Origin: Paenibacillus polygoni
GTDB lineage: Bacteria > Bacillota > Bacilli > Paenibacillales > Paenibacillaceae
Direction: 5' to 3'
NCBI RefSeq assembly: GCF_030263935.1
Contig: NZ_CP127162.1
Location: forward strand, 4,554,001-4,618,000
Length of the DNA stretch: 64,000 nucleotides
The notes below the pieces were generated by a model. The model ran no database searches, was not told the origin of the DNA, and was given only the letters and a program-made list of their open reading frames with translations. Of this stretch, positions 27,605-41,252 are shown piece after piece. The translations under genes and the position numbers were made by a program. Each line of letters starts with the position of its first letter. Within the stretch, counting starts at the first letter, position 1.

Positions 27605-29077
27605 CTAACGAGCAATCTCCTCCGCCACGAGCCTTCCCGAGCGGGTGACAATAGGAGTTCCCCCTCCAGGATGTGTTGTCCCTCCTACAAACCACAATCC
27701 TTCTATATCTTTGGAACGATTGGACGGTCTTGTGAAGGTCTGCTTCGGATTGTTGGAAGAGATTCCATAGATACTGCCCCGGTAAGCAAGGGTATCACGC
27801 TGAATATCTTCTGGGGTGTAGTGACTCATCACATCAGCTCGTTCCAAACCTGTCACACCAAGCTCTGATAGCCGCCGGATCAGTTTATCCTGATAAGCAG
27901 ACGACTCATGCTTCCAATTCCATTCCTTTGATACATAAGGTGCATTGGCAAGAATGAACAGGTTGCTGCCCCCTTCTGGAGCCATTCCCTGCTCTGAATA
28001 CCCAGAGTAACAAAGATATAGCGTCGGATTTTCAGGAGCTCTCTTTTTACTAAAAATATCCGTGAATTCTGCTTCATAATGGTCTGGAAAAAAGACGGTA
28101 TGATGAAGAAGTTTGTCATACTGCTGCTGTATGCCTGCAAGTGTGACAAACCCTGATAGGGAGGGCTCATACTGCTCAATCTTTCGATTGTTCATTGATG
28201 GGCGCTGTGATTCAGGAATCAGCAGCTGATGAATACGAAGTACATCCCCATTAGCAATAACAACGTCTGCTGTATATTCATCCCTGTCCGTCTCTACTCC
28301 AGTAACTTTGCTACGGTGTGTTTTAATTCTCTTCACTTCTTCTCCAGTCCGAAAGATAACCCCCTTCTCCCGCGCGAGCTTCTCCATTCCGGACACCAGG
28401 GAGTACGTACCTCCTTCCACGCCATATACCCCAAGTTCTGCTTCCACATGAGCGAGCATGGCGAAGATCGAAGGTGCTTCATAAGGCGAAGATCCAACGT
28501 AAGTTGCGTATCTGCCGAACATTTGGAGTGTATTTGGATGCGTGAAATAACGCTGAAGCAGTGTATTCAGCTTCGTCATGGGTCTGACACGCAGTAAACT
28601 TTTTAACATCGACACATTATATTTATCCTGGGGACGAATCATCAGCTGCCCAAGAAATTTCTGATTTGCTTCCCTATAAAGCGCTTTGGATTCATCCATA
28701 AAGGCATCGTAGTTTTGTGCGTCTTTTTCGCTGTATGCGGCAATCTGCTCTTTCATAAAGGCACGATCGCTAGACAGGTCTACCGTTTTCCCGTCAGCGA
28801 ATACATTTCTTGTCCTTGGCTCGAGATCATACATTTTCACATAGTCTTCCATCTCTACACCAGCCAGTTCAAACACTTCCCGAAAAATATGGGGCATCGT
28901 AATGGTGCTCGGTCCTCGGTCAAAATAATAATCGCCAAGCTGAATACGCTGCAGTTTGCCGCCTGCATGTTGCTGCCGCTCAATGATCGTTACATCCTTG
29001 CCTAGTGTGGCAAGACGTATAGCCGAAGACAACCCGCCGAATCCAGCTCCAATAATAACTACCTTTTGTTTGTTCAA
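27605..29077 (-). CDS. CrtP/CrtNb-type C30 carotenoid oxidase (FAD amine-oxidase fold)
   Basis: A 490-aa flavoprotein of the CrtI/CrtN/CrtP family. The N-terminal dinucleotide fold is VVIIGAGFGGLSSAIRLA with the second-strand ERQQHAGGKL; the C-terminal FAD motif is GLWFVGGTTHPGGGTPIVTRSG. GPSTITMPHIFREVF resembles the terminal-oxidase (CrtP) branch, so I infer oxidation of a terminal methyl of the C30 chain to aldehyde or acid. A TTG at 29077, with GGGAGG 8 bp upstream, overlaps the previous stop (TTGA) and is the likely start; a GTG seven codons upstream lacks such a site. Confidence 0.82.
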   Translation of the reverse strand: MNKQKVVIIGAGFGGLSSAIRLATLGKDVTIIERQQHAGGKLQRIQLGDYYFDRGPSTITMPHIFREVFELAGVEMEDYVKMYDLEPRTRNVFADGKTVDLSSDRAFMKEQIAAYSEKDAQNYDAFMDESKALYREANQKFLGQLMIRPQDKYNVSMLKSLLRVRPMTKLNTLLQRYFTHPNTLQMFGRYATYVGSSPYEAPSIFAMLAHVEAELGVYGVEGGTYSLVSGMEKLAREKGVIFRTGEEVKRIKTHRSKVTGVETDRDEYTADVVIANGDVLRIHQLLIPESQRPSMNNRKIEQYEPSLSGFVTLAGIQQQYDKLLHHTVFFPDHYEAEFTDIFSKKRAPENPTLYLCYSGYSEQGMAPEGGSNLFILANAPYVSKEWNWKHESSAYQDKLIRRLSELGVTGLERADVMSHYTPEDIQRDTLAYRGSIYGISSNNPKQTFTRPSNRSKDIEGLWFVGGTTHPGGGTPIVTRSGRLVAEEIAR

Positions 29078-30279
29078 TGATAGTGCCTCCCTTTCCACAC
29101 ATAACCTTTACCGGTCACAGCTCCAAGCCAGGATGAGATACCAATGGCAATGACAAAAAAAATGCTGACTGAGTGAAGTAAACTTAACCAGAATGGATGG
29201 CTTCCTGTAAGATCAGCCACTCTTTTCACTAGCATGCCAAGTAAAGTCCCGGTCGCTCCCAAGGCCGCTGCTTTAAAGTCGCCAGTAAATACTCCAATCA
29301 GAAAACTGATCGGCGGGAGAAGATAGAGAGCAGTATACATCACAAGAACCCCTGCTAACAGAAAACCGCTGCGCCCGAGGCCCTCGTACATATTTTTCTT
29401 ATATCCGTTCCATACCTCGTCTGCATTCTGGTACATCCTCGTGCGGGTATGGCGATGAACATCAACGAGCGTAACCGGATGCCCTGCTTTTTTCACTGCA
29501 CGGGCAAGCTGCATATCATCCAGCAAATCTGCCTTGATGGCTTCATGCCCTCCTGCTGCTTTATAGGTATCCCGGTGAATAAACATAAACGCACCGGTAG
29601 CCGCAACAAAACGGGGGTTCTGCGAACCTCTCACTAGCACAATAGGCAGATGACTGATAATCGTAAATTTCATCATAGGTACGACCAGTTTCTCAAGCCA
29701 AGTGGCTGTTATTTGGCGGGGGAACCCCGTAACAAGTCCCTTTTGCTGAGCTTGGCCGGTGGTGAGCACCGCGGTGAGTGCCGTTTTTTCTAATCTGACG
29801 TCGGCATCCATATACAGCCACCACTCTCCGGTTGCCTGCTGAGCAAGCTCATGGCATGCATAGGATTTGCCCATCCATCCTGAGGGAAGTTCCTTACCTT
29901 CCAGAATTCGCAGACGGTGATCTTTTGTCGCGAGTTGTTCTAGAATCTCACCGGTTTGATCTTCCGATCGGTCATCGAGAACAATGACCTCCAGCTGTAT
30001 GCCCTCTGTATCCGCAGCCAGCACACTTTCCACACAATCTTTAATATGAATCTGTTCATTTCGCGCAGGAATTAGAACAGAGATCTTCGTCTTTGCGTCC
30101 CTATTGATGTGAGATAGGCGAGTGTCTTTCGAGCGTTCTGCGATGTGATCTGCAGTAGAATCTTTGTTATCATCCGGTACGCCAAGGAGTGGAAGCTTGG
30201 TCCGGTTCCAGAGAGAGAAGACCAGCTGAACAGCAAGAATACCGCAGAGGATCAGCAGCAGAGTGTGATAAAAACCCAT
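29074..30279 (-). CDS. Family 2 glycosyltransferase, CrtQ-like
   Basis: A 401-aa membrane glycosyltransferase. After an N-terminal membrane helix comes a GT-A domain with KISVLIPARNEQIHIKDCVESV, LDDRSEDQT, the metal-binding WWLYMDADVRL and a DDMQLARAVKKAG acid motif; three or four membrane helices follow (residues 300-390). It resembles CrtQ, which glucosylates the carotenoid acid of staphyloxanthin-type pigments. It begins 3 bp after the acyltransferase gene and overlaps the next gene by 4 bp. Confidence 0.85.
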   Translation of the reverse strand: MGFYHTLLLILCGILAVQLVFSLWNRTKLPLLGVPDDNKDSTADHIAERSKDTRLSHINRDAKTKISVLIPARNEQIHIKDCVESVLAADTEGIQLEVIVLDDRSEDQTGEILEQLATKDHRLRILEGKELPSGWMGKSYACHELAQQATGEWWLYMDADVRLEKTALTAVLTTGQAQQKGLVTGFPRQITATWLEKLVVPMMKFTIISHLPIVLVRGSQNPRFVAATGAFMFIHRDTYKAAGGHEAIKADLLDDMQLARAVKKAGHPVTLVDVHRHTRTRMYQNADEVWNGYKKNMYEGLGRSGFLLAGVLVMYTALYLLPPISFLIGVFTGDFKAAALGATGTLLGMLVKRVADLTGSHPFWLSLLHSVSIFFVIAIGISSWLGAVTGKGYVWKGRHYH

Positions 30280-30282
30280 GAT

Positions 30283-31020
30283 TCATCCCCGCTTCCGTAC
30301 AAATACATGATCAAAATGTTCGCTTGTGGAACGTCCTGATTTGGTTAGAGGTTGATATTGCTTGGGACGATTATCCTCAGCCTTCATTACCTCTACTTTT
30401 TGACTGTCTAGTTGTTCTACCATTACGGTCTCAAGCCTGCTCGTAATTAATCTGCTGTCCATCATTTCCCAATTGTCCAGCAGCGGAGGACCTGCCATCA
30501 TCAGCGCTTCCGGCTTGTCCTGTCCATACATGCCGTGTACTAGAGTTACCGGTATGACAGCAGCATCCGGCACCCGTCTCAGCAAAACTCCGATCCCGCG
30601 CTGAAACGTAAGCGGACGCAGATCTTGATGCATGATTTTTCCCTGTGGATACATCCATACCCGTTTTCCCGCACGTAATAACTGCGTTGTATATTCAAAG
30701 GAAGCCTTCACATCAGAGGCAGACTCTTTTTTGATCGAAAAGGCTCCTAATTTGCGAAAAAAGGTAAACTTTTTGAGCTGTTTTTCTTCCATCATCACGT
30801 AATGATCATGGTTCGTAAGTTTACGAAAAGCATGATAAGCCAGCAGACCATCCCACCACGAACTGTGGTTCATAATATATAACATAGGTCTGCCCTCTAC
30901 GAGCAAAGGGTCTAGATCACCGGTAAAACCGACATATCTAAACCGCCGCTCGAGCAAGTATTTTTGATGGTAATGAAAAAACATGTGATCAAAAAGCCGA
31001 GACTTGTTTGCGGGCAGCAT
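30283..31020 (-). CDS. PlsC-type acyltransferase of the carotenoid cluster
   Basis: A 245-aa lysophospholipid-acyltransferase-fold protein. Motif I is MNHSSWWDG (HX4D, His52 and Asp57) and motif III is WMYPQGKIM; MVHG-type motif IV appears as IPVTLVHGMYG. In a pigment operon it probably esterifies the sugar of a carotenoid glycoside with a fatty acid, a role played in Staphylococcus by the unrelated CrtO. ATG 31020 behind AAGGGAG is chosen; the frame extends to a TTG at 31041. It overlaps the CruF-like gene by 32 bp. Confidence 0.82.
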   Translation of the reverse strand: MLPANKSRLFDHMFFHYHQKYLLERRFRYVGFTGDLDPLLVEGRPMLYIMNHSSWWDGLLAYHAFRKLTNHDHYVMMEEKQLKKFTFFRKLGAFSIKKESASDVKASFEYTTQLLRAGKRVWMYPQGKIMHQDLRPLTFQRGIGVLLRRVPDAAVIPVTLVHGMYGQDKPEALMMAGPPLLDNWEMMDSRLITSRLETVMVEQLDSQKVEVMKAEDNRPKQYQPLTKSGRSTSEHFDHVFVRKRG

Positions 31021-31759
31021 ACTGATGTCTCCCTTCAGCAAGCAAGATACCTATTGCAGCGATCAGGGCACTGCCATAGAGTCCGGCTTGAACGGCAAGT
31101 AATCCAAACAGCAATATAAACATTTGGTATAGAACTTTTGCTTTTCGCTGAACAACTGGATCATTCGGGATCGGCGGAATAAAGAGTGACAACAGGCCCC
31201 CCATAACAAACCAGCTTACAAAATTGGTCCACGGTACCCCGTAAAATCCACCCGCAGCTTCCCAGCTCCAGAATTCTCGCTGGTGGGCTACTGGATCAAG
31301 TACCAAGTCCATCATCAGTGCCCATGCCCCTGTTTTTATGGCTCTTATTCCTTTACTCTTCCAGCCGGCTCCTCCCCCGCTGAGAAGGGCTGAATTCCCA
31401 ACCACAGCAATCCAAGCAAATCCAAGCGTAAAAGGAACAGCAAACAAATGAGGTCCAAATAAATAGGAATAATGATAGGATCCAAACGGCCAACCCGTAT
31501 GGACCCCGACCCATTCTACCCCCATTCCTCCTGTCCAGATAACAACTGCCATCATCCAGAATCTTGGCTTCTTCCACCAACTGACTGACTGGTCGGACAG
31601 TGGGTTTTTCACGTCGTTACTAAAAATAAGATCAACAGCACATAGTGCATATAAAATAAGAAATATCCCATTTGAGAACGAGAGCGCATCGGGGACGCCG
31701 ATCGTTAATAACAAAACCGCTCCAATACTGTACCAAATCCAGTAAATAAGCTGAACCAT
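30989..31759 (-). CDS. cruF: CruF-type carotenoid biosynthesis membrane protein (putative 1,2-hydratase)
   Basis: A 256-aa polytopic protein with about seven membrane segments. MGVEWVGVHTGWPFGSYHYS and MMDLVLDPVAHQREFWSWE match the carotenoid-synthesis (CruF, formerly DUF422) family, which adds water to the psi end of acyclic carotenoids to give a 1-hydroxy group. That hydroxyl would then be a glycosylation site. The start overlaps the crtM stop by 1 bp (TAATG). No hydratase is needed for classical staphyloxanthin, so this gene predicts a different end product. Confidence 0.82.
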   Translation of the reverse strand: MVQLIYWIWYSIGAVLLLTIGVPDALSFSNGIFLILYALCAVDLIFSNDVKNPLSDQSVSWWKKPRFWMMAVVIWTGGMGVEWVGVHTGWPFGSYHYSYLFGPHLFAVPFTLGFAWIAVVGNSALLSGGGAGWKSKGIRAIKTGAWALMMDLVLDPVAHQREFWSWEAAGGFYGVPWTNFVSWFVMGGLLSLFIPPIPNDPVVQRKAKVLYQMFILLFGLLAVQAGLYGSALIAAIGILLAEGRHQYAARKQVSAF

Positions 31760-32631
31760 TAGGATACCGCTGCTTTCGGTCCTTCTCCTAATAGAGCAGG
31801 ATATCTAGAAGCGACTTCTAAAAACAGTTGCATTTTCGTTTCATCATTTACGTAGGCCCGCTTTGTGAACACATCATACTCATTACTCTCCACTGCTTGT
31901 AAGATCGAGGCATAATAGGATGATGCAAGTTCAATAGCAAAGCCGCTTACTTGAGGATATGTTCCTATATCGGATAATCCGATTTCAAATAAGTGTAGTG
32001 CCCTCTTTCTTAATTCGGTAAGCAAAGATACAAATTTTTCATCTATAATTCCGTTATGAAAGTCTTCTTCTGTATATCCATGAGCTTTCATCATCTCTAG
32101 CGGAATATAGCGGCGACCTCTCCTTTGGTCTTCACCCACATCCCGAATGATATTTACAATCTGCATTGCTTTGCCTAGTGCAATCCCTGATTCCATGACC
32201 TTCATTCCGCTGTCATCACGAAGCACGGGGAGCAGCATTTCGCCAACTGTTCCTGCAACCAAATAGCAATAGTGTTCAAGCTCTTCTACCGTAGAATACT
32301 GAGTGAGAGTTAAGTCTGATAATTGTCCATCCATTTGTCTGAAAAATGGAGCTTTTGACAACATGGGAAACGTATCAAACAACCAGCGAAGTGCCGGCCA
32401 TATAAAGTGACCCTCGGCTTTTTCAAGTGCCTGTAGTTGTTCCCTCAGCTCATGAATAGAATAAGGGGCCTTCTCTGGTTCATCTACACTGTCATCGATG
32501 ATCCGGCAGAATGCATATATCACAAATACGGCTTCACGCCTGGGACTTGGTAAACCATAAAAAGCATGATAAAAAGAAGTCGAACCTTTCTTGATCATTT
32601 CCTCACAGCGTTCGAATATCATTTCGTTCAT
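31759..32631 (-). CDS. crtM: Squalene/phytoene synthase family, dehydrosqualene synthase-like
   Basis: Head-to-head prenyl synthase, 290 aa. Both Asp-rich Mg-diphosphate motifs are present: DDSVDE (about residues 46-51) and NIIRDVGED (about 160-168), as is YHAFYGLPSPRREAVFVIYAFCR. Length and the company of three CrtN-type enzymes favour condensation of two farnesyl diphosphates to C30 dehydrosqualene; C40 phytoene synthesis cannot be excluded by sequence alone. The ATG overlaps the previous stop by 4 bp (ATGA). Confidence 0.88.
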   Translation of the reverse strand: MNEMIFERCEEMIKKGSTSFYHAFYGLPSPRREAVFVIYAFCRIIDDSVDEPEKAPYSIHELREQLQALEKAEGHFIWPALRWLFDTFPMLSKAPFFRQMDGQLSDLTLTQYSTVEELEHYCYLVAGTVGEMLLPVLRDDSGMKVMESGIALGKAMQIVNIIRDVGEDQRRGRRYIPLEMMKAHGYTEEDFHNGIIDEKFVSLLTELRKRALHLFEIGLSDIGTYPQVSGFAIELASSYYASILQAVESNEYDVFTKRAYVNDETKMQLFLEVASRYPALLGEGPKAAVS

Positions 32632-34091
32632 GATCTCAACTCCTTTATTAGTTGATTAACTGCCAGCTTCGCGCCCTGCATCACAATGGGTACGCCCCCG
32701 CCTGGATGAATCGAAGCGCCTGCCGCATACAAACCCTGGATATTCGGATAAGGTTTCGGCTGAGGACGATAAACTCCGGATTGAGTAAGTACCGGCGCGA
32801 TGCCAAAGCTTCCTCCTCCATACAATCCATCCCGCTTGGCATCGTTTGGTGTACGTACTTTTTGCCAGCGGATATTCTCCCTGAGGGCAGGGAATGCTTT
32901 CTTTTCTGCCTCTTCAAGCACTTTCTCTACAAGCTTACCTGTTTCCTCCCCATGAGAGAATCTTTCAGCGTTCGGTACAGGTATTAAGAAATAGAGAACG
33001 CTATGACCTTCTGGTGCCGCAGATGCATCCGTATGAACCGGATTAAATACATAGAAGGAAGGATGTTCAGGTAGTCTATTCTTCTGAAATACTTCTTTCA
33101 TGTTAGAGACAAAAGCGCTTGGAAGGAAAAACTGATGGGTCGTTGCTTCCTCAAACCTTTTTTCTACGCCTAAATATACTAGCAAACATCCAGAAGAGGC
33201 TTTGTAGGCACGTCTTTTTCGTCTGTGCTTCGGTGACAGAAGCTCTGTGATCTGCGGAAAATCACCATTAAATAGGGTAGCATCATAAGGAGCTGTTCGT
33301 TGTGAAGTCACGATCCCTTTGCAGCTTCCTTCTTCGATCATAAGCGACGTAACCTCTTCACCGAAATGAAAGATGACCCCTCGATTCTTTAGTTCCTCTT
33401 CCAGTATGGAAGCGAGAGAAGCATATCCGCCTTTGAGAATCCATACGCCATACTCATGTTCTGCATAAGGCAGCAAAGTATAAATACCGGGTGTCGACAG
33501 CGGTGACCCGCCGATGTATAAACTTTGCAAGGAATAAGCATCTTTCAGTTGATCACTATGAAAATAACGGCTCATCGCAGAACGCAGACTGGTATAAGCT
33601 CTCATCCGTTTTAAAAGGCCTGTCATCTCGCGAGTATAGAAATCTCTTTGCTTCGGAAAAGGCCGCTCAAGAATAGCACTTACCCCTCTTGGAAACAGGG
33701 GATCCATATCGGCCATAAACCGCTCAAACCCTTTACCTTCCCCTGGGAATACACGGTTGATCTCGTCTACCTGTTCTTCCCGGCTTGACCACTTATTCAG
33801 TACTCTTCCATCTTCAAAATAAAAACGATGCATTGGATCGCAGCGAATCAGCTCCACTTTAGAACGATCTACGCCGGCTTCTTCCAGAATACGCAGGAGC
33901 ATATCCGGCAGTAAAACAATTGTCGGCCCCTGATCAATTCGATAAATCCCTTCTTCTTCGTAGGCAAGCCGGCCGCCTGTACGATGGGATTTTTCATAGA
34001 TTGTCACTTGATATCCTTGATTCGTTAATAGCAGAGCGGCTGTCAGCCCGCCAATACCGGAGCCTACAATGGCAATCTGTTTCTTGTTCAT
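32628..34091 (-). CDS. CrtN-type carotenoid desaturase, second copy (CrtNc-like)
   Basis: A 487-aa CrtI/CrtN-family flavoprotein. FAD motif IAIVGSGIGGLTAALLLTNQG at the N-terminus; GPTIVLLPDM; C-terminal GLYAAGASIHPGGGVPIVMQGAKLA. It is clearly divergent from the neighbouring copy. The start is taken as ATG 34091 because it overlaps the upstream stop as ATGA; the frame also has an ATG two codons earlier. The three paralogues in this operon probably split desaturation and terminal oxidation; which step this one performs cannot be told from sequence. Confidence 0.85.
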   Translation of the reverse strand: MNKKQIAIVGSGIGGLTAALLLTNQGYQVTIYEKSHRTGGRLAYEEEGIYRIDQGPTIVLLPDMLLRILEEAGVDRSKVELIRCDPMHRFYFEDGRVLNKWSSREEQVDEINRVFPGEGKGFERFMADMDPLFPRGVSAILERPFPKQRDFYTREMTGLLKRMRAYTSLRSAMSRYFHSDQLKDAYSLQSLYIGGSPLSTPGIYTLLPYAEHEYGVWILKGGYASLASILEEELKNRGVIFHFGEEVTSLMIEEGSCKGIVTSQRTAPYDATLFNGDFPQITELLSPKHRRKRRAYKASSGCLLVYLGVEKRFEEATTHQFFLPSAFVSNMKEVFQKNRLPEHPSFYVFNPVHTDASAAPEGHSVLYFLIPVPNAERFSHGEETGKLVEKVLEEAEKKAFPALRENIRWQKVRTPNDAKRDGLYGGGSFGIAPVLTQSGVYRPQPKPYPNIQGLYAAGASIHPGGGVPIVMQGAKLAVNQLIKELRS

Positions 34092-35638
34092 GTGCATTGC
34101 CCTGCTTCCTTCCCTTTTTTAAAGAGGGGACTTGCAGTTTGCTTTTTTGCGTCATCCTCTTGAATTAGTCCTACAGATATTTTAGCCGATTCAAAAATAG
34201 TAGGCAGACCGCTGCCTGGATGGGTTCCGCCGCCGACAAGATAGACACCTTCTACTTCCTCAAACCGGTTATGCGGTCTTAAATACATCATCTGCCCAAG
34301 CTTATGTGAGAGATTAAAGAGCGCTCCATTATAAATATCCAGCTCTTGTTCCCACTGAAGCGGGGTGAAAAACATCTCTTCTTCGATGTAGTCGGATAAA
34401 CCTGCAAGTTCGGGGATCTGTTCCAGACGATCCATCATTCTTTGCCGTATTTCAGCTCGCTGTCCATCCCAATCGATATCCGCTGTCGTATTTGGCGTTG
34501 GCATCAGCACATACAGGGATGACTTGCCTTCCGGCGCCAGAGTCGGGTCAAGTACAGACGGATTATGAACATAGATGGAAGGGTCTTCTGATAAAACTTT
34601 ATGCATCGTCATCTCATCCACATTTTTACGATAATCCGCTGCAAAATGAACGGAATGATGAGCAAGGTCGATTTTCTTGTTCACGCCTAGATAAAGCATG
34701 GCACCAGAGCAGGAATACTTCATATCCTTGATTTTTTCAGGCGTGTATTTCTTCAGTACCCCAGGCTCAAACAGTTTGTTCATCGATGCAGCGAAGTCTC
34801 CATTTAGGACAACATGATCTGCCTTCACTTCTTCCCCGTTCTCAAGTAAAAGACCTTGCGCTCTGCCTTGCTCCACTTGAATCTTCTGCACAGCCGTACT
34901 TGTGTGGATCGTTCCTCCATACTCCCGAATGACATCGGCCATCGCTTGGAAGATCTGATTGACTCCGCCTTTCGGGTGATGTAATCCAAAATGATGTTCT
35001 ATATAAGAAAGAATCGTAAACGTTCCTGGACAATCCCAAGCTGACATCCCTAAATATTTAGCCTGGAAAGTAAATCCCCACCGGAGCCGTTCATCTTGAA
35101 AATACCGAGAGAGTCTGCCGTAAACCGTATCTTGTAGGTGAAGATAAGGAAGTGCCTTGATCGCATCTTGTTTTATGTAATCAGATAACTTGCCAAAAGG
35201 CCTGCGCAGAAGCGGCTCTACCTTTTGGTATTTAACAGATTCAACCCGCATAAAATTTCTGTAGTTCTGTTCATCTCCCGGAAACACGCGTGCAATCTCT
35301 GCCGCTGTCTTCTCTTCATCACTGGAAGGTCTGAATACGGTATCCCCAAAATGGAGAGAATACAGTGGGTCGAGCTGCTGCATATCCACATAATCATATA
35401 AAGACCTGCCTACCTTCTGGAACATTTCTTCAAGCAGATGGGGCATCATCAAAAAGGTAGCTCCGCGGTCAAAACGATAGTCTCCAAGCTCTAGTCTCGC
35501 AGATCGTCCTCCAATCACCGCTTGTTTTTCATATATATCAACTTTATATCCTTGGCCGGCAAGCAGCATCCCTGCCGCCAACCCCCCAGGCCCAGCTCCA
35601 ATGACAACAGCTTGTCTCTTGTTCTGATTATGGTTCAT
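34088..35638 (-). CDS. crtN: CrtN-type carotenoid desaturase (dehydrosqualene desaturase-like)
   Basis: First gene of the crt operon, 516 aa. N-terminal FAD motif AVVIGAGPGGLAAGMLLAGQG with EKQAVIGGRS, then MKYSCSGAMLYLGVNK, DPSIYVHNPSVLDPTLAPEGKSSLYVLMPTP and the C-terminal GVYLVGGGTHPGSGLPTIFESAK. The central blocks match staphylococcal CrtN (4,4'-diapophytoene desaturase) well, so I assign the main desaturase role. A C-terminal basic tail (KKQTASPLFKKGKEAG) extends past the family end. ATG follows AAAGGTGAG at 9 bp. Confidence 0.87.
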   Translation of the reverse strand: MNHNQNKRQAVVIGAGPGGLAAGMLLAGQGYKVDIYEKQAVIGGRSARLELGDYRFDRGATFLMMPHLLEEMFQKVGRSLYDYVDMQQLDPLYSLHFGDTVFRPSSDEEKTAAEIARVFPGDEQNYRNFMRVESVKYQKVEPLLRRPFGKLSDYIKQDAIKALPYLHLQDTVYGRLSRYFQDERLRWGFTFQAKYLGMSAWDCPGTFTILSYIEHHFGLHHPKGGVNQIFQAMADVIREYGGTIHTSTAVQKIQVEQGRAQGLLLENGEEVKADHVVLNGDFAASMNKLFEPGVLKKYTPEKIKDMKYSCSGAMLYLGVNKKIDLAHHSVHFAADYRKNVDEMTMHKVLSEDPSIYVHNPSVLDPTLAPEGKSSLYVLMPTPNTTADIDWDGQRAEIRQRMMDRLEQIPELAGLSDYIEEEMFFTPLQWEQELDIYNGALFNLSHKLGQMMYLRPHNRFEEVEGVYLVGGGTHPGSGLPTIFESAKISVGLIQEDDAKKQTASPLFKKGKEAGQCT

Positions 35639-35727: not shown

Positions 35728-35804
35728 TATACAAATATAATACAAATCATCGTAGATAAAGTAAAGTTAAGACAAACATTATACAAACTATTTACACTGA
35801 CTTC
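35728..35804 (-). promoter_or_regulatory. crt promoter region with CarH-type 11-bp TACA repeats
   Basis: On the plus strand the tetramers GACA 35771, TACA 35782 and TACA 35793 are spaced exactly 11 bp, and TACA 35730 and 35741 form a second 11-bp pair. On the minus strand TATAAT (35778-35783) overlaps the 35782 unit by two bases, and a second candidate promoter TTTACT-N17-TATTAT (35760-35765, 35737-35742) overlaps the 35741 unit by the same two bases. CarH operators of Thermus are tandem 11-bp repeats containing TACA, so these are strong operator candidates for the adjacent regulator. Confidence 0.78.
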
Positions 35805-35836
35805 TTCTTCAAACTGCGAAAACGGTCTTCCAAATA

Positions 35837-35876
35837 ACAAAAAAGCACCCTCTTTTAAAGAAAAGAGCGTGCTAAA
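35837..35876 (-). terminator. Terminator of the MerR/B12 regulator gene
   Basis: AGCAC-CCTCTTTT pairs with AAAAGAG-GTGCT around an AAAG loop (35844-35873); the minus strand continues TTTTTTGTT. It separates the regulator from the crt operon, so crt needs its own promoter. Confidence 0.92.
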
Positions 35877-35914
35877 TATGCTGCTTTATCGTGTTGTTTC
35901 ACTATAGGCTATGC

Positions 35915-36871
35915 CTATCTTTTAGAAAAAAGATCTCGTGGATGGAATTTTGCCATATACGTTTCTGTAAACCAGTCTTGCCAATCGTGAGCACTTCCCG
36001 TCAGGATCCACTGCTTATACTTCGGTTTTTTTGCTTTTTCATACCCTTGTCCACCAAGTGCAAACTGTATATTTGGAGCATGTTTCCGAATCGTTGTTAC
36101 CACATCATCCGCTGTTTTCGCCATCTCTTCATTCGTTACCGAAATACATACGAGATCAATCTTCTGATCCTTGAGAATGGGAAGCACTCCCTCGGTAGGT
36201 GTATTTGCACCTAGATAAAGTACCTCTGCTCCATTCTTTCGTAAGAATAAACTAAAGAGCATTAGACCGACCTGATGATGTTCTCCTTCTGGACACATGG
36301 CCAGCACTTTTGGTAAGTGAGGATAAATCGGGAATAAATGAAAGAACTGATAAAACCGCTGAGAGATCAGCTGTGTCATATAGTGTTCTTGAGCGACCGA
36401 AGCTCGTCCGTTCTCCCAGGCGTCTCCTACCCGAATCAGTATAGGCACCAGCACTTGATAAAACATGGCATCGTATCCGTACATCGTAAATCCAAAATCA
36501 ATAAGGGCGTTGGCTCGTTCTCCCTGGAACTGAAACAAAGACTGGTAAATTTGATCTTCCATTTTTCGAAAGGCATCATCATTTCCAATCTGCGGCATCG
36601 GTTCTGCCAGTATTGCATCTGCTTTGTTTTGTTCATCCTTATGGGTTTTTAACAATCGTACCGCATGGGAAATGCTCATATGGTTAGAATCGACCTGCTC
36701 TTTGAGCCAGCGCAAATCCTCTACATTTTCTTCCGTATAGATTCGGTATCCGGAATCGGTTCGCAGGGGTTCCACCGCATGGTATCTGTTCTCCCACGCC
36801 CGCAGGGTTACGGCAGGAATACCCAACATTTCAGTAACCTGTTTAATTGAATACAAAAGGCATTCACTCAC
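35915..36871 (-). CDS. CarH/LitR-type MerR regulator with B12-binding photoreceptor domain
   Basis: A 318-aa, three-part protein. Residues 5-75: MerR helix-turn-helix (YSIKQVTEMLGIPAVTLRAWENRY, GYRIYTEENV). Residues 100-175: B12 cap four-helix bundle with the W-x9-EH light-sensing motif (Trp152, Glu162, His163). Residues 186-310: Rossmann cobalamin domain with E-x-H-x-x-G (EHHQVG) giving the lower-ligand His199. Family knowledge: adenosylcobalamin-bound tetramers repress carotenoid genes in the dark and fall apart in light. The residue after Trp152 is Glu, whereas Thermus CarH has His132 there. GTG 36871 is the listed start; a TTG at 36856 is also possible. Confidence 0.9.
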   Translation of the reverse strand: MSECLLYSIKQVTEMLGIPAVTLRAWENRYHAVEPLRTDSGYRIYTEENVEDLRWLKEQVDSNHMSISHAVRLLKTHKDEQNKADAILAEPMPQIGNDDAFRKMEDQIYQSLFQFQGERANALIDFGFTMYGYDAMFYQVLVPILIRVGDAWENGRASVAQEHYMTQLISQRFYQFFHLFPIYPHLPKVLAMCPEGEHHQVGLMLFSLFLRKNGAEVLYLGANTPTEGVLPILKDQKIDLVCISVTNEEMAKTADDVVTTIRKHAPNIQFALGGQGYEKAKKPKYKQWILTGSAHDWQDWFTETYMAKFHPRDLFSKR

Positions 36872-36922
36872 TCTCTTCTATCATCCGGTCCGTGACTTAA
36901 GGAGAAGTCTCCTTAAACATTC

Positions 36923-36969
36923 TACAAAAATAGTACATTCATTATACACAAACCAAAATTCACTGTCGA
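36923..36969 (-). promoter_or_regulatory. Promoter of the CarH-like gene with three 11-bp TACA repeats
   Basis: Minus-strand -35 TCGACA (36964-36969), 17-bp spacer, -10 TATAAT (36941-36946). On the plus strand TACA occurs at 36923, 36934 and 36945, exactly 11 bp apart, and the last unit overlaps the -10 by two bases. The same arrangement occurs at the crt promoters, suggesting autoregulation. Confidence 0.82.
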
Positions 36970-37119
36970 TAACCCTTGCTCCTCTACTCTTGTATATAGG
37001 ATAAGAGGACCATGCTTCAATAGTTGTATGTTGGTGTTAATAGTGTTCATACTGCCTGCTTACCTGCTTGTATAGGCCTGTATACATAGATCAACTAATT
37101 ACTCGAAGGGATGTTTCTT

Positions 37120-38631
37120 ATGAAAAAGCATTCTAAACATAGTCCAGTAATATCGCATTCCCCGTCCTCTTCTCCTATAAAATCAGCGATCCAAAAAAAG
37201 AGGCCGATAAAGAAATTCATCTTATGGTTTTTACTTGCTAATATCGTTTGGCTTACTGCCGTTGTCATCTATCAAATGAATAAACCTTTGCCTGAGGGTG
37301 TTGCTTTTGAAGGTCAGGTCCATCAATTAGCGGATGTTGACTTCATAACAGACCTTACCTACCCTTCCTCAGATGGAAAGATGGAACATGAACAGCAGAT
37401 TATTAAACGCATGGAGAAGATTGTGAACGAAGCGCAGCAGTTCCTAGTCATTGATCTATTTTTATTTAACAATTATCAGCATACCGATCAGAAGTTTCCC
37501 GAAGCGAGTGAACGGTTCACGAACCTGCTTGTGAACAAAAAGGAAGAGAACCCGGAAATGGACATTGTCTTCATTACAGATGAAGTAAATACCAATTACA
37601 ATTCTCATCCAAACGCACTGCTCGAGCGAATGAAGCAACATGGAATACGGGTTGTTATTACGGATGTGGATTCACTTCGCGACTCTACACCGCTGTATTC
37701 AGCAGTATGGCGCACTTATTTTCAGTGGTTTGGACAGTCCGGTAACGGATGGCTTCCCAATCTCATGGCAAGCGATGGTCCTGATGTTACATTGCGGTCC
37801 TATCTGAAACTCATGAATGTAAAAGCCAATCACCGAAAACTGGTAGCCAGTGAGAAAAACGCGATTGTGGCCTCGGCTAATGTACATGACCCTAGTATTT
37901 ATCACTCTAATATTGCCTTCGAAGTGAGCGGAAATATCATAGGGGATCTGCTCAAAGCCGAACAGACGGTCCTTAATATTTCAGGCGGAGGAAAACTCCC
38001 GGCCTTTACTCCTTCTCAGGAAGAAGAGCAAGGTCCCATCCGTGTTCGTTACCTGACCGAAGGGAAAGTGGCAGAATACGCAGTTAATCTCATCAAAGAA
38101 GCGAAAAAAGGAGATACCCTATGGATGGGCATGTTCTATCTGGCGGACCGTGATATCAAATCAGCACTGCTTGACGCCGCTTCACGCGGAGCTGCGGTAA
38201 AACTGATTCTAGACCCGAATGAAAATGCGTTCGGTCAGAAAAAAATAGGGATACCAAATCGGCCCGTTGCCCAGGAACTCACAGATAACTCAGAGGGGAA
38301 CATTGAAATCAGGTGGTACAATACCACTAAAGAACAGTACCATACAAAACTTCTGTATTTATCACGAAACAGCGGAACTCAGCTGATTTTGGGAGGATCA
38401 AGTAATTTTACTCCTCGGAATCTAAATAATTATAACCTGGAGAATGATCTTTATATGGAAGCTCCTGAAGACAGTAAACTTGTTACCCAGATGAATCAAT
38501 ACTTTGAGCGTTTGTGGACGAATGAAGATGCCAAGTTTACACTTGATCTAGCCGAATATAAAGATGATATCCCATTTTTTAAAGACATGTTATATAAACT
38601 GCAATACTCCCTTGGTTTCACTACGTTCTAA
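37120..38631 (+). CDS. Membrane-anchored phospholipase D-like protein
   Basis: A 503-aa protein with an N-terminal basic stretch and one membrane helix (about residues 30-52), then two PLD/HKD-type halves. The first contains NHRKLVASEKNAIVASANVHD, the second YHTKLLYLSRN with GGSSNFTPRNLNNYNLENDL, so both HxK catalytic signatures are present. It may be a cardiolipin-synthase or phospholipase relative acting outside the membrane, but the substrate is unknown. ATG 37120 behind AAGGG is preferred to one 9 bp earlier. Monocistronic, followed by a terminator. Confidence 0.85.
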   Translation: MKKHSKHSPVISHSPSSSPIKSAIQKKRPIKKFILWFLLANIVWLTAVVIYQMNKPLPEGVAFEGQVHQLADVDFITDLTYPSSDGKMEHEQQIIKRMEKIVNEAQQFLVIDLFLFNNYQHTDQKFPEASERFTNLLVNKKEENPEMDIVFITDEVNTNYNSHPNALLERMKQHGIRVVITDVDSLRDSTPLYSAVWRTYFQWFGQSGNGWLPNLMASDGPDVTLRSYLKLMNVKANHRKLVASEKNAIVASANVHDPSIYHSNIAFEVSGNIIGDLLKAEQTVLNISGGGKLPAFTPSQEEEQGPIRVRYLTEGKVAEYAVNLIKEAKKGDTLWMGMFYLADRDIKSALLDAASRGAAVKLILDPNENAFGQKKIGIPNRPVAQELTDNSEGNIEIRWYNTTKEQYHTKLLYLSRNSGTQLILGGSSNFTPRNLNNYNLENDLYMEAPEDSKLVTQMNQYFERLWTNEDAKFTLDLAEYKDDIPFFKDMLYKLQYSLGFTTF

Positions 38632-40247: not shown

Positions 40248-40295
40248 TTGTATCGCCCTCTTAATTAAGATATAATTTCCATGACTTCTTAGTCA
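40248..40295 (+). promoter_or_regulatory. Promoter and operator of the tetR-RND pair
   Basis: -35 TTGTAT (40248-40253), 17-bp spacer, -10 TATAAT (40271-40276), then the palindrome TGACT-TCTT-AGTCA (40282-40295) across the expected transcription start, a probable autoregulatory operator. Confidence 0.75.
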
Positions 40296-40334
40296 AAATG
40301 AGAACCGTGGAGTTCTAGAGAGGGGTGATCTTGG

Positions 40335-41252
40335 ATGATGAACTCAACCACGGATAAAAAGAAACATATTGTAGTCACGGCTCTAGGATTATTTTCTACC
40401 AAAGGAACTGCGGCAACCTCCATGCAAGAAATCGCAGAAATCTGCGGGATCTCTAAAGGAAGTCTGTATCTTCACTTCAAATCGAAAGAAGAACTGCAGC
40501 AGAGTGTGATTCACTACTGTATTCAGTCTATTTATGACAAAATAGTGCTTGTGGAGAGTGAACAGCACTTATCACCGAAAGAAATATTCTGCAGGCAGAT
40601 CGAAATTTTGCTTGAAAATTTTTTGGAACTCAAAGAATTTTTTCTTGCTCAATTTCAAGATGCCATCAGTCAAGGTAACAGCGGCCTAACGCAGAAGAAT
40701 TGCCCTGAAGATATGTTCAAACTCGTCTTAAAAAAATTCAATCAGAAAATGATCGATGTGTATGGACCGCAGATTCATCCTTATACTCTTGATATGGCGC
40801 TTCAAGTACAAAGTTTGATGGGTTCTTACATAAAAATTATGTTCTCAAAAATACTGCCTATATCCATTAAGCGAATGGCGGAATATCTCGTGGAAACGCT
40901 TGATGATCTGGCGGAAGCGAAACTGCGTCATGGCGGAGAGCCGTTTATTCCGCATGAACTATTGCTCCCCTGGATTGAAGAGGGAATCCCACAAAGCCCT
41001 GCTAAAAAACACCCTTTGCTATTACTGAAGGAAATGCGTCAACATATTGAAAAAAATGTAGAGTTGTCTGAGCTCGTTCGCTCCGAAGCACAGGAGTCCA
41101 TTCTTGTACTGGAACATGAACTTACTGAAATGAAGCCTCGCCGCGTAATCCTCACGGGTATGCTTAGTAATTTAAGTACAGTGCCTGGGTTGGAAGAACA
41201 AGTCATACAATTAGAGCATTTGCTTGACACGTATTTATCTTGGCGCAAATAA
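40335..41252 (+). CDS. Long TetR family regulator, YerO-like
   Basis: A 305-aa TetR-family protein. Helix-turn-helix TSMQEIAEICGISKGSLYLHFKSKEELQ lies at residues 28-55. It is about 100 residues longer than most TetR proteins; the extra C-terminal part (after about residue 220) looks helical and Glu/Leu-rich. Size and position before a stand-alone RND pump match B. subtilis YerO, which represses swrC. Start at the first of two adjacent ATG codons behind GGGGTG. Confidence 0.88.
   Translation: MMNSTTDKKKHIVVTALGLFSTKGTAATSMQEIAEICGISKGSLYLHFKSKEELQQSVIHYCIQSIYDKIVLVESEQHLSPKEIFCRQIEILLENFLELKEFFLAQFQDAISQGNSGLTQKNCPEDMFKLVLKKFNQKMIDVYGPQIHPYTLDMALQVQSLMGSYIKIMFSKILPISIKRMAEYLVETLDDLAEAKLRHGGEPFIPHELLLPWIEEGIPQSPAKKHPLLLLKEMRQHIEKNVELSELVRSEAQESILVLEHELTEMKPRRVILTGMLSNLSTVPGLEEQVIQLEHLLDTYLSWRK

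Follow-up and report, generated by a model that had tools for sequence, protein, structure and literature searches.

Does the MerR-type, cobalamin-binding protein encoded beside a carotenoid (crt) gene cluster of Paenibacillus polygoni control these genes in response to light, and through which DNA sites would it do so? The window analysed here, 64,000 nucleotides of contig NZ_CP127162.1, had been proposed from its sequence to hold a complete light- and cobalamin-controlled switch of the CarH/LitR type, with matching 11-bp operators at the promoters of the regulator gene and of the crt cluster. We consider it very likely that the locus encodes a circuit of this type, in which a B12-dependent repressor responds to light, the control by light and by B12 being what the family leads us to expect. 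The protein family, the type of operator, the targets and the pairing of the genes all held up.

Organization of the carH–crt locus

The carH gene adjoins the carotenoid genes and has operator-like repeats at its own promoter, a combination typical of the CarH/LitR family (Table 1). It is separated from the crt genes by an intrinsic terminator, the region of which (35835–35885) gave a folding z-score of −4.8. The seven genes of the crt cluster follow 3′ of this terminator on the minus strand, from 35638 down to 27605. The three crtN-type genes were named CrtNa, CrtNc, and CrtNb by their order relative to Table 5 of the description of Paenibacillus aurantius (PMC10673419).

Table 1. Coordinates (within the window) of the genes, promoter elements and putative operators of the carH–crt locus.
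Feature	Position	Strand	Remarks
carH/litR-type gene	35915..36871	-	GTG start, 318 aa; domains: MerR (DNA binding), helical B12 module, Rossmann (B12 binding)
Intrinsic terminator	35846..35869	-	after carH, separates carH from crt
crtN-type desaturase, crt gene 1 (CrtNa by order in P. aurantius)	34088..35638	-	TIGR02734, 472.7 bits
crtN-type oxidoreductase (CrtNc by order)	32628..34097	-	TIGR02734, 328.8 bits
Phytoene/diapophytoene synthase (CrtB/CrtM)	31759..32631	-	PF00494
Carotenoid biosynthesis membrane protein (CruF-like)	30989..31759	-	PF04240
Acyltransferase, crt cluster	30283..31041	-	PF01553
Glycosyltransferase, crt cluster	29074..30279	-	PF00535
crtN-type desaturase, final crt gene (CrtNb by order)	27605..29098	-	TIGR02734, 384.2 bits
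carH −35 box TCGACA	36964..36969	-	promoter scan, 11/12 matches, 17-bp spacer
carH −10 box TATAAT	36941..36946	-	promoter scan
Putative carH operator, three 11-bp units	36923..36948	-	TACA at 36945, 36934, 36923 (+ strand), read on - as TGTATAATGAA, TGTACTATTTT, TGTA; covers −10 box and expected start region
Putative distal crt operator, three units	35771..35796	-	TACA 35793, TACA 35782, GACA 35771; just upstream of −35
crt −35 box TTTACT	35760..35765	-	promoter scan, 17-bp spacer
crt −10 box TATTAT	35737..35742	-	promoter scan
Putative proximal crt operator, two units	35730..35744	-	TACA 35741, TACA 35730; overlaps −10 box

On the other side, a phospholipase-D-like gene (37111–38631, plus strand) diverges from carH, and in all 34 named loci L064–L097 a relative was seen on this side, likewise divergent. 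The leader of carH, 3′ of the operator, holds an inverted repeat, TTAAGGAGA-AG-TCTCCTTAA, at 36897–36916; it is present in the related loci L005–L007 and absent from L008, and its fold (z −2.3) was equalled by 7 of 200 shuffles.

Tandem 11-bp repeats and promoter elements

All eight tetramers on which the original prediction was built were found on the plus strand, where they line up in tandem as direct repeats of 11 bp at the promoters, as in the CarH/LitR family. Within the window, TACA-N7-TACA occurs seven times against 1.58 expected, a number that none of 100 shuffles reached. When each intergenic region was subjected to 20,000 dinucleotide shuffles and searched on either strand, triples spaced by 11 arose at rates of 5e-5 on the carH side (TACA) and 2.5e-4 on the crt side (TACA or GACA); with any spacing from 7 to 22 allowed, these rates were 0.0024 and 0.0063, respectively. 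The pattern TGTA-N7-TGTA-N7-TGTM has two matches in the 4,939,088-base genome, at the carH and crt promoters, and five matches when reversed as a control, so that the position of the triple is striking rather than its number. The unit known from the literature, TnnACA, is fitted by five of the eight units; those at 36934, 35771, and 35741 deviate from it.

A consensus promoter scan returned four sites overall, compared to 4.0 in shuffled sequences, and the choice of promoters therefore rests on conservation. TCGACA followed after 16–18 bp by TATAAT precedes carH in 54 of the 66 loci with at least 55% CarH identity. Before crt, the hexamer 17 bp from a TATTAT-like box was TTTACA in 33, TTTACT in 5, and neither in 27 of the 65 loci in the same identity range. 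The distal cluster contains a TATAAT as well, but the scan gave no −35 box for it, which makes it doubtful as a −10 box. Judged from these elements, the proximal pair most likely marks the place of the crt promoter, with the three-unit cluster situated just upstream of its −35 box. The original prediction had correctly located repeats at 35771, 35782, and 35793, but the crt promoter that it placed there probably belongs to the proximal pair instead. Its further claim, that one unit of every cluster overlaps the last two bases of a −10 box, is right in terms of the plus strand, the −10 box of the distal cluster being doubtful. Read along the transcript, the −10 box begins with the two bases that end TGTA (TGTATAAT, TGTATTAT).

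Conservation of the repeats among relatives

The 54 loci of the genus, less L060, and 71 named loci were pooled to 124, of which 104 distinct ones were kept. L060, with the truncated carH of genome G041, was excluded as no start motif was found, and the remote loci L134–L139 and L141–L143, Chloroflexota among them, were left out of the 104-locus count. In the own clade (at least 80% CarH identity), three units were present both at carH and at crt in five of five loci. At 55–80% identity, three [TC]GT units preceded carH in 61 of 61 loci and crt in 59 of 60, the sole exception (L010) having two; a loss of the 11-bp pattern despite a retained gene pair, named in the original prediction as evidence against it, was not what these nearer relatives showed. 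Other spacings (7–10 and 12–15) gave three units in 0–3 of the 60–61 loci. Counted over all distinct loci with at least 55% identity, the three units at carH were found in 66 of 66. With strict TGT, three units remained at carH in 55/61 and at crt in 16/60 of the loci at 55–80% identity, and allowing CGT in one unit is what raises the crt count from 16/60 to 59/60. Below 55% identity, three units were found at carH in 9 of 38 loci, at least two in 29, and not even two in 9; at crt, three units were found in 4 of 8. Two-unit counts can run high at other spacings as well (e.g., 45/61 at spacing 13), and therefore only the three-unit counts discriminate. By eye, many of the more distant carH genes, of Bacillaceae and other Paenibacillus (L108–L128), start with a two-unit site and show further pairs upstream in both orientations.

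The position at which the genus conserves its crt operator corresponds to that of the proximal pair, 35730–35744. A three-unit cluster together with a separate proximal pair was found in all five loci of the own clade (L005–L008, L064) and in none of the 60 others at 55–80% identity, and no other feature of the locus is as unusual as this split operator, which is specific to the clade. Two crt clusters of other make-up occur in L045 and L091, and four or five in-register crt units in twelve loci (L057, L058, L083, L085–L089, L092, L095, L105, and L107).

Upstream of crt, 40 of 73 distinct carH–crtN1 loci also contain a palindrome, TGACC-N4-[GA]GTCA, 17–19 bp before the CarH units (in the GGTCA form in 35 of the 73, with examples among L009–L059); the own clade lacks it upstream of crt. 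Similar palindromes were seen by eye in L191–L193 just upstream of a TetR-looking gene with an RND efflux gene behind it. In the window, a palindrome with one mismatch (40281–40296) precedes a TetR gene at 40335 with an AcrB-family neighbour, a match no better than chance. In the relatives, a second regulator of crt acting through the TGACC-N4-GGTCA palindrome is possible.

Co-occurrence and natural losses of carH and crt

Among 75 congeneric genomes, carH was found in 54 and crtB in 53: 51 had both, three had carH only (G020, G041, and G073), two had crtB only (G031 and G065), and 19 had neither, in counts uncorrected for kinship. Paenibacillus xylanivorans (G073, L094) has lost crt and kept carH with its operator, whereas in G041, where crt is likewise lost, carH is truncated and without a promoter. 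Paenibacillus pabuli (G020) keeps carH and both operators beside a damaged crt cluster. In another genome (G005, L059) carH lies in two frames, with both operators intact.

The two crtB-only genomes (L144 and L145) keep crt without carH, and a carH-type −35 box, −10 box and two units lie between the phospholipase-D-like gene and crtN. The third carH unit and the crt units of their relative G047 are gone in both. Since the two genomes are closely alike at this locus, they are best counted as one event. The carH-type promoter in front of crt is possibly an escape from light control.

These losses bear on how the repeats themselves are to be read. Each cluster has one unit that shares bases with a −10-like box, and part of the conservation is therefore expected without CarH; it could thus be argued that the repeats are ordinary AT-rich −10 sequence (TGTATAAT, TGTATTAT) with an incidental 11-bp spacing, and that CarH binds elsewhere or nowhere. 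The five genome-wide matches of the reversed control, compared to two real ones, would fit such an explanation. It does not account, however, for the confinement of three-unit conservation to spacing 11, nor for the conservation of the units 3′ of the carH −10 box (TGTAGAATGTT). In the genomes without carH, moreover, the −35 box, the −10 box and the first two units of the carH-type promoter stayed, but neither its third unit nor the units at crt did. We hold incidental repeats to be very improbable.

Repression or activation

Since CarH has a MerR domain, it might activate crt rather than repress it. MerR activators work on spacers of 19–20 bp that contain a palindrome. No such palindrome or spacer was found here: the spacers of the carH and crt promoters are 17 bp long, and the sites lie as direct repeats on the −10 and start regions. 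The characterised CarH homologues described in PMC9304148 repress, and we give activation hardly any credence. At both promoters the 17-bp spacers and the units over the −10 box and the start make occlusion of RNA polymerase the simplest reading.

Characteristics of the CarH protein and cobalamin supply

Four Pfam profiles matched the protein above their cut-offs, PF13411 (MerR_1), PF00376 (MerR), PF02607 (B12-binding_2), and PF02310 (B12-binding), giving the N-terminal MerR domain and the C-terminal helical and Rossmann B12 domains of CarH/LitR. Its score against the NCBIfam equivalog NF052513 (TransRegCarH) was 137.2 bits, below the cut-off of 400, yet this was the best match in the library. 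The closest solved structures by sequence were those of Thermus thermophilus LitR/CarH (PDB 5c8d/5c8e/5c8f, 3whp). With an AlphaFold model (pLDDT 88, pTM 0.62, 23-sequence alignment), the top 12 rows of a Foldseek search were full-length T. thermophilus CarH chains (best E 2e-17, approximately 28% identity). The whole-chain rmsd in these rows was 8 to 18 Å because the domains pack differently; the B12 domain alone superposed at 2.0–2.8 Å in most domain-only rows.

The W-x9-EH and E-x-H-x-x-G motifs that had been noticed in the protein are both present in its translation, with W151, E161, H162, and the lower-ligand His198 in place (numbering of the 317-aa translation). GDAW, EH, GEHH, and GANTP correspond to GxxW, EH, GxxH, and GxxxP, the light-responsive cobalamin signature (PMC11796333). 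A homologue search passed 382 proteins, and among the 120 listed, G-x-x-W-x9-EH was found in 117 and, together with E-x-H-x-x-G, in 115. The residue after the motif Trp, which corresponds to Thermus His132, is Glu in the window protein. Of the 117 listed homologues that have the motif, 113 likewise carry Glu, and the others carry His (2), Ala (1), or Gln (1). The His of the bis-His adduct in Thermus-type light chemistry is hence replaced by Glu. T. thermophilus H132A was mostly tetrameric in the light, with an earlier report of disassembly also noted (PMC10442372); taken by analogy, this behaviour and the Glu of the window protein would count against light-driven disassembly. The CBD of Myxococcus xanthus has Glu at the same position and is light-responsive, and it recovers, unlike the Thermus domain, in which a change of His132 to Ala likewise gave recovery (PMC5396336). 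A reversible switch is therefore predicted for the window protein. By the same analogy, its light state should be free of a bis-His adduct, and its chromophore may be exchangeable as in the M. xanthus domain. The Glu had been considered as a novelty, which was dropped since M. xanthus has Glu there too (PMC5396336).

A PduO-type adenosyltransferase gene (197.4 bits) is present in the genome, and a search for a CobA/BtuR-type enzyme found none; the host is thus predicted to make AdoCbl through the PduO-type enzyme. The genome has two cobalamin riboswitches, and near one of them are genes of the CobD/CbiB family and of the periplasmic-binding-protein family. That the protein is a B12-independent relative of the CarA or class II LitR kind responding to another signal, as the Glu in place of Thermus His132 might suggest, is highly unlikely given the presence of His198, W151, E161, and H162, the light response of the M. 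xanthus CBD with Glu at that position (PMC5396336), and the adenosyltransferase gene.

Proposed mechanism and further targets

Taken together by analogy with characterised homologues, CarH probably keeps the crt genes and itself off in the dark through the 11-base repeats. AdoCbl-loaded CarH would assemble in the dark, probably as a tetramer, and bind the direct repeats that span the −10 box and the start region at both promoters, shutting out RNA polymerase. Light would break the Co–C bond, the assembly would fall apart, and carH and the seven crt genes would be transcribed, carH being under negative autoregulation. An elaboration of this scheme remains tentative, and we would sooner doubt than accept it: the two-part, five-unit crt operator might take up two CarH assemblies and so respond to light with a sharper threshold than the carH operator does, the Glu might make the switch reversible by chromophore exchange so that it is not spent after one photon, and the palindrome of the relatives might serve the second regulator.

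In a scan of the 75 genomes for three-unit sites, counted by hand with overlapping registers counted apart, 130 of 138 matches fell on the promoters of carH or crt and the other 8 outside them, and the reversed control gave 12. A third conserved target with three-unit sites is not supported, the 8 off-locus matches being fewer than the 12 of the control. A relaxed scan of the own genome returned the carH site alone and was insensitive, since it missed the crt sites.

Comparison with known systems

The described operators consist of 11-bp repeats of the form nnnnTnnACAn, three in Thermus and four in Bacillus megaterium, that overlap the −35 box in the former and the −35 or −10 box in the latter (PMC9304148; PMC8156234). 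As far as its published description goes, CarH/LitR of B. megaterium resembles the window system in belonging to the Bacillales, in carotenoid control, in AdoCbl, and in tandem 11-bp repeats on the −35 or −10 box; it differs in having four repeats (or three and one pseudorepeat) per operator, where the window has three for carH and, divided between two clusters, 3+2 for crt. A plasmid search for the B. megaterium homologue yielded matches from Thermus, Caballeronia, and Allorhizobium alone. In B. megaterium, carH itself is reportedly a target and spx is said to be a third, for which the three-unit sites of the Paenibacillus genus scan contained no counterpart.

CarH/LitR of T. thermophilus shares the fold, W-x9-EH, the lower-axial His, and three 11-bp repeats with the window system and differs in sequence (approximately 28% identity) and in His132 versus Glu. 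In Thermus, the −35 element falls within one of the repeats (PMC9304148); in the window, the repeats sit on the −10 box, their ACA motif reading on the strand opposite to the transcript. The Myxococcales, including M. xanthus, likewise have an AdoCbl-dependent CarH repressor with 11-bp repeats (PMC9304148), with Glu at the His132 position in M. xanthus (PMC5396336), but their operator counts five DR/dr repeats, one of which encloses the −35 box, and M. xanthus also has a CarA/CarS pathway (PMC9304148). The crt cluster of P. aurantius has the same gene order, and a ‘Cobalamin B12-binding domain-containing protein’ (ORF11) adjoins CrtNa; in the available text of that paper ORF11 is tabulated once, the names CarH and LitR are absent, and ‘light’ is used three times, never with regard to light control (PMC10673419). 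A light-responsive isolate nearest to Paenibacillus alvei has been tabulated (PMC6739363).

The operator detail had been thought new for Paenibacillus. No description of CarH operators in this genus was found in the literature searched, with most subscription papers outside its reach, but operators of this type have been described for B. megaterium besides Thermus (PMC9304148), and the novelty is therefore smaller than first judged. The window system adds a new and well-supported example to a kind of switch known from Thermus, B. megaterium, and Myxobacteria.

Significance

The locus extends a known light and B12 switch, with operator detail, to Paenibacillus and its relatives. Their three-, four-, five-unit, and split operators amount to natural experiments in operator design, and the lineage without the repressor, which also lost the crt operator, is a natural experiment of its own. 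For the control of genes by green light, the Glu variant and the diverse operators offer useful components.
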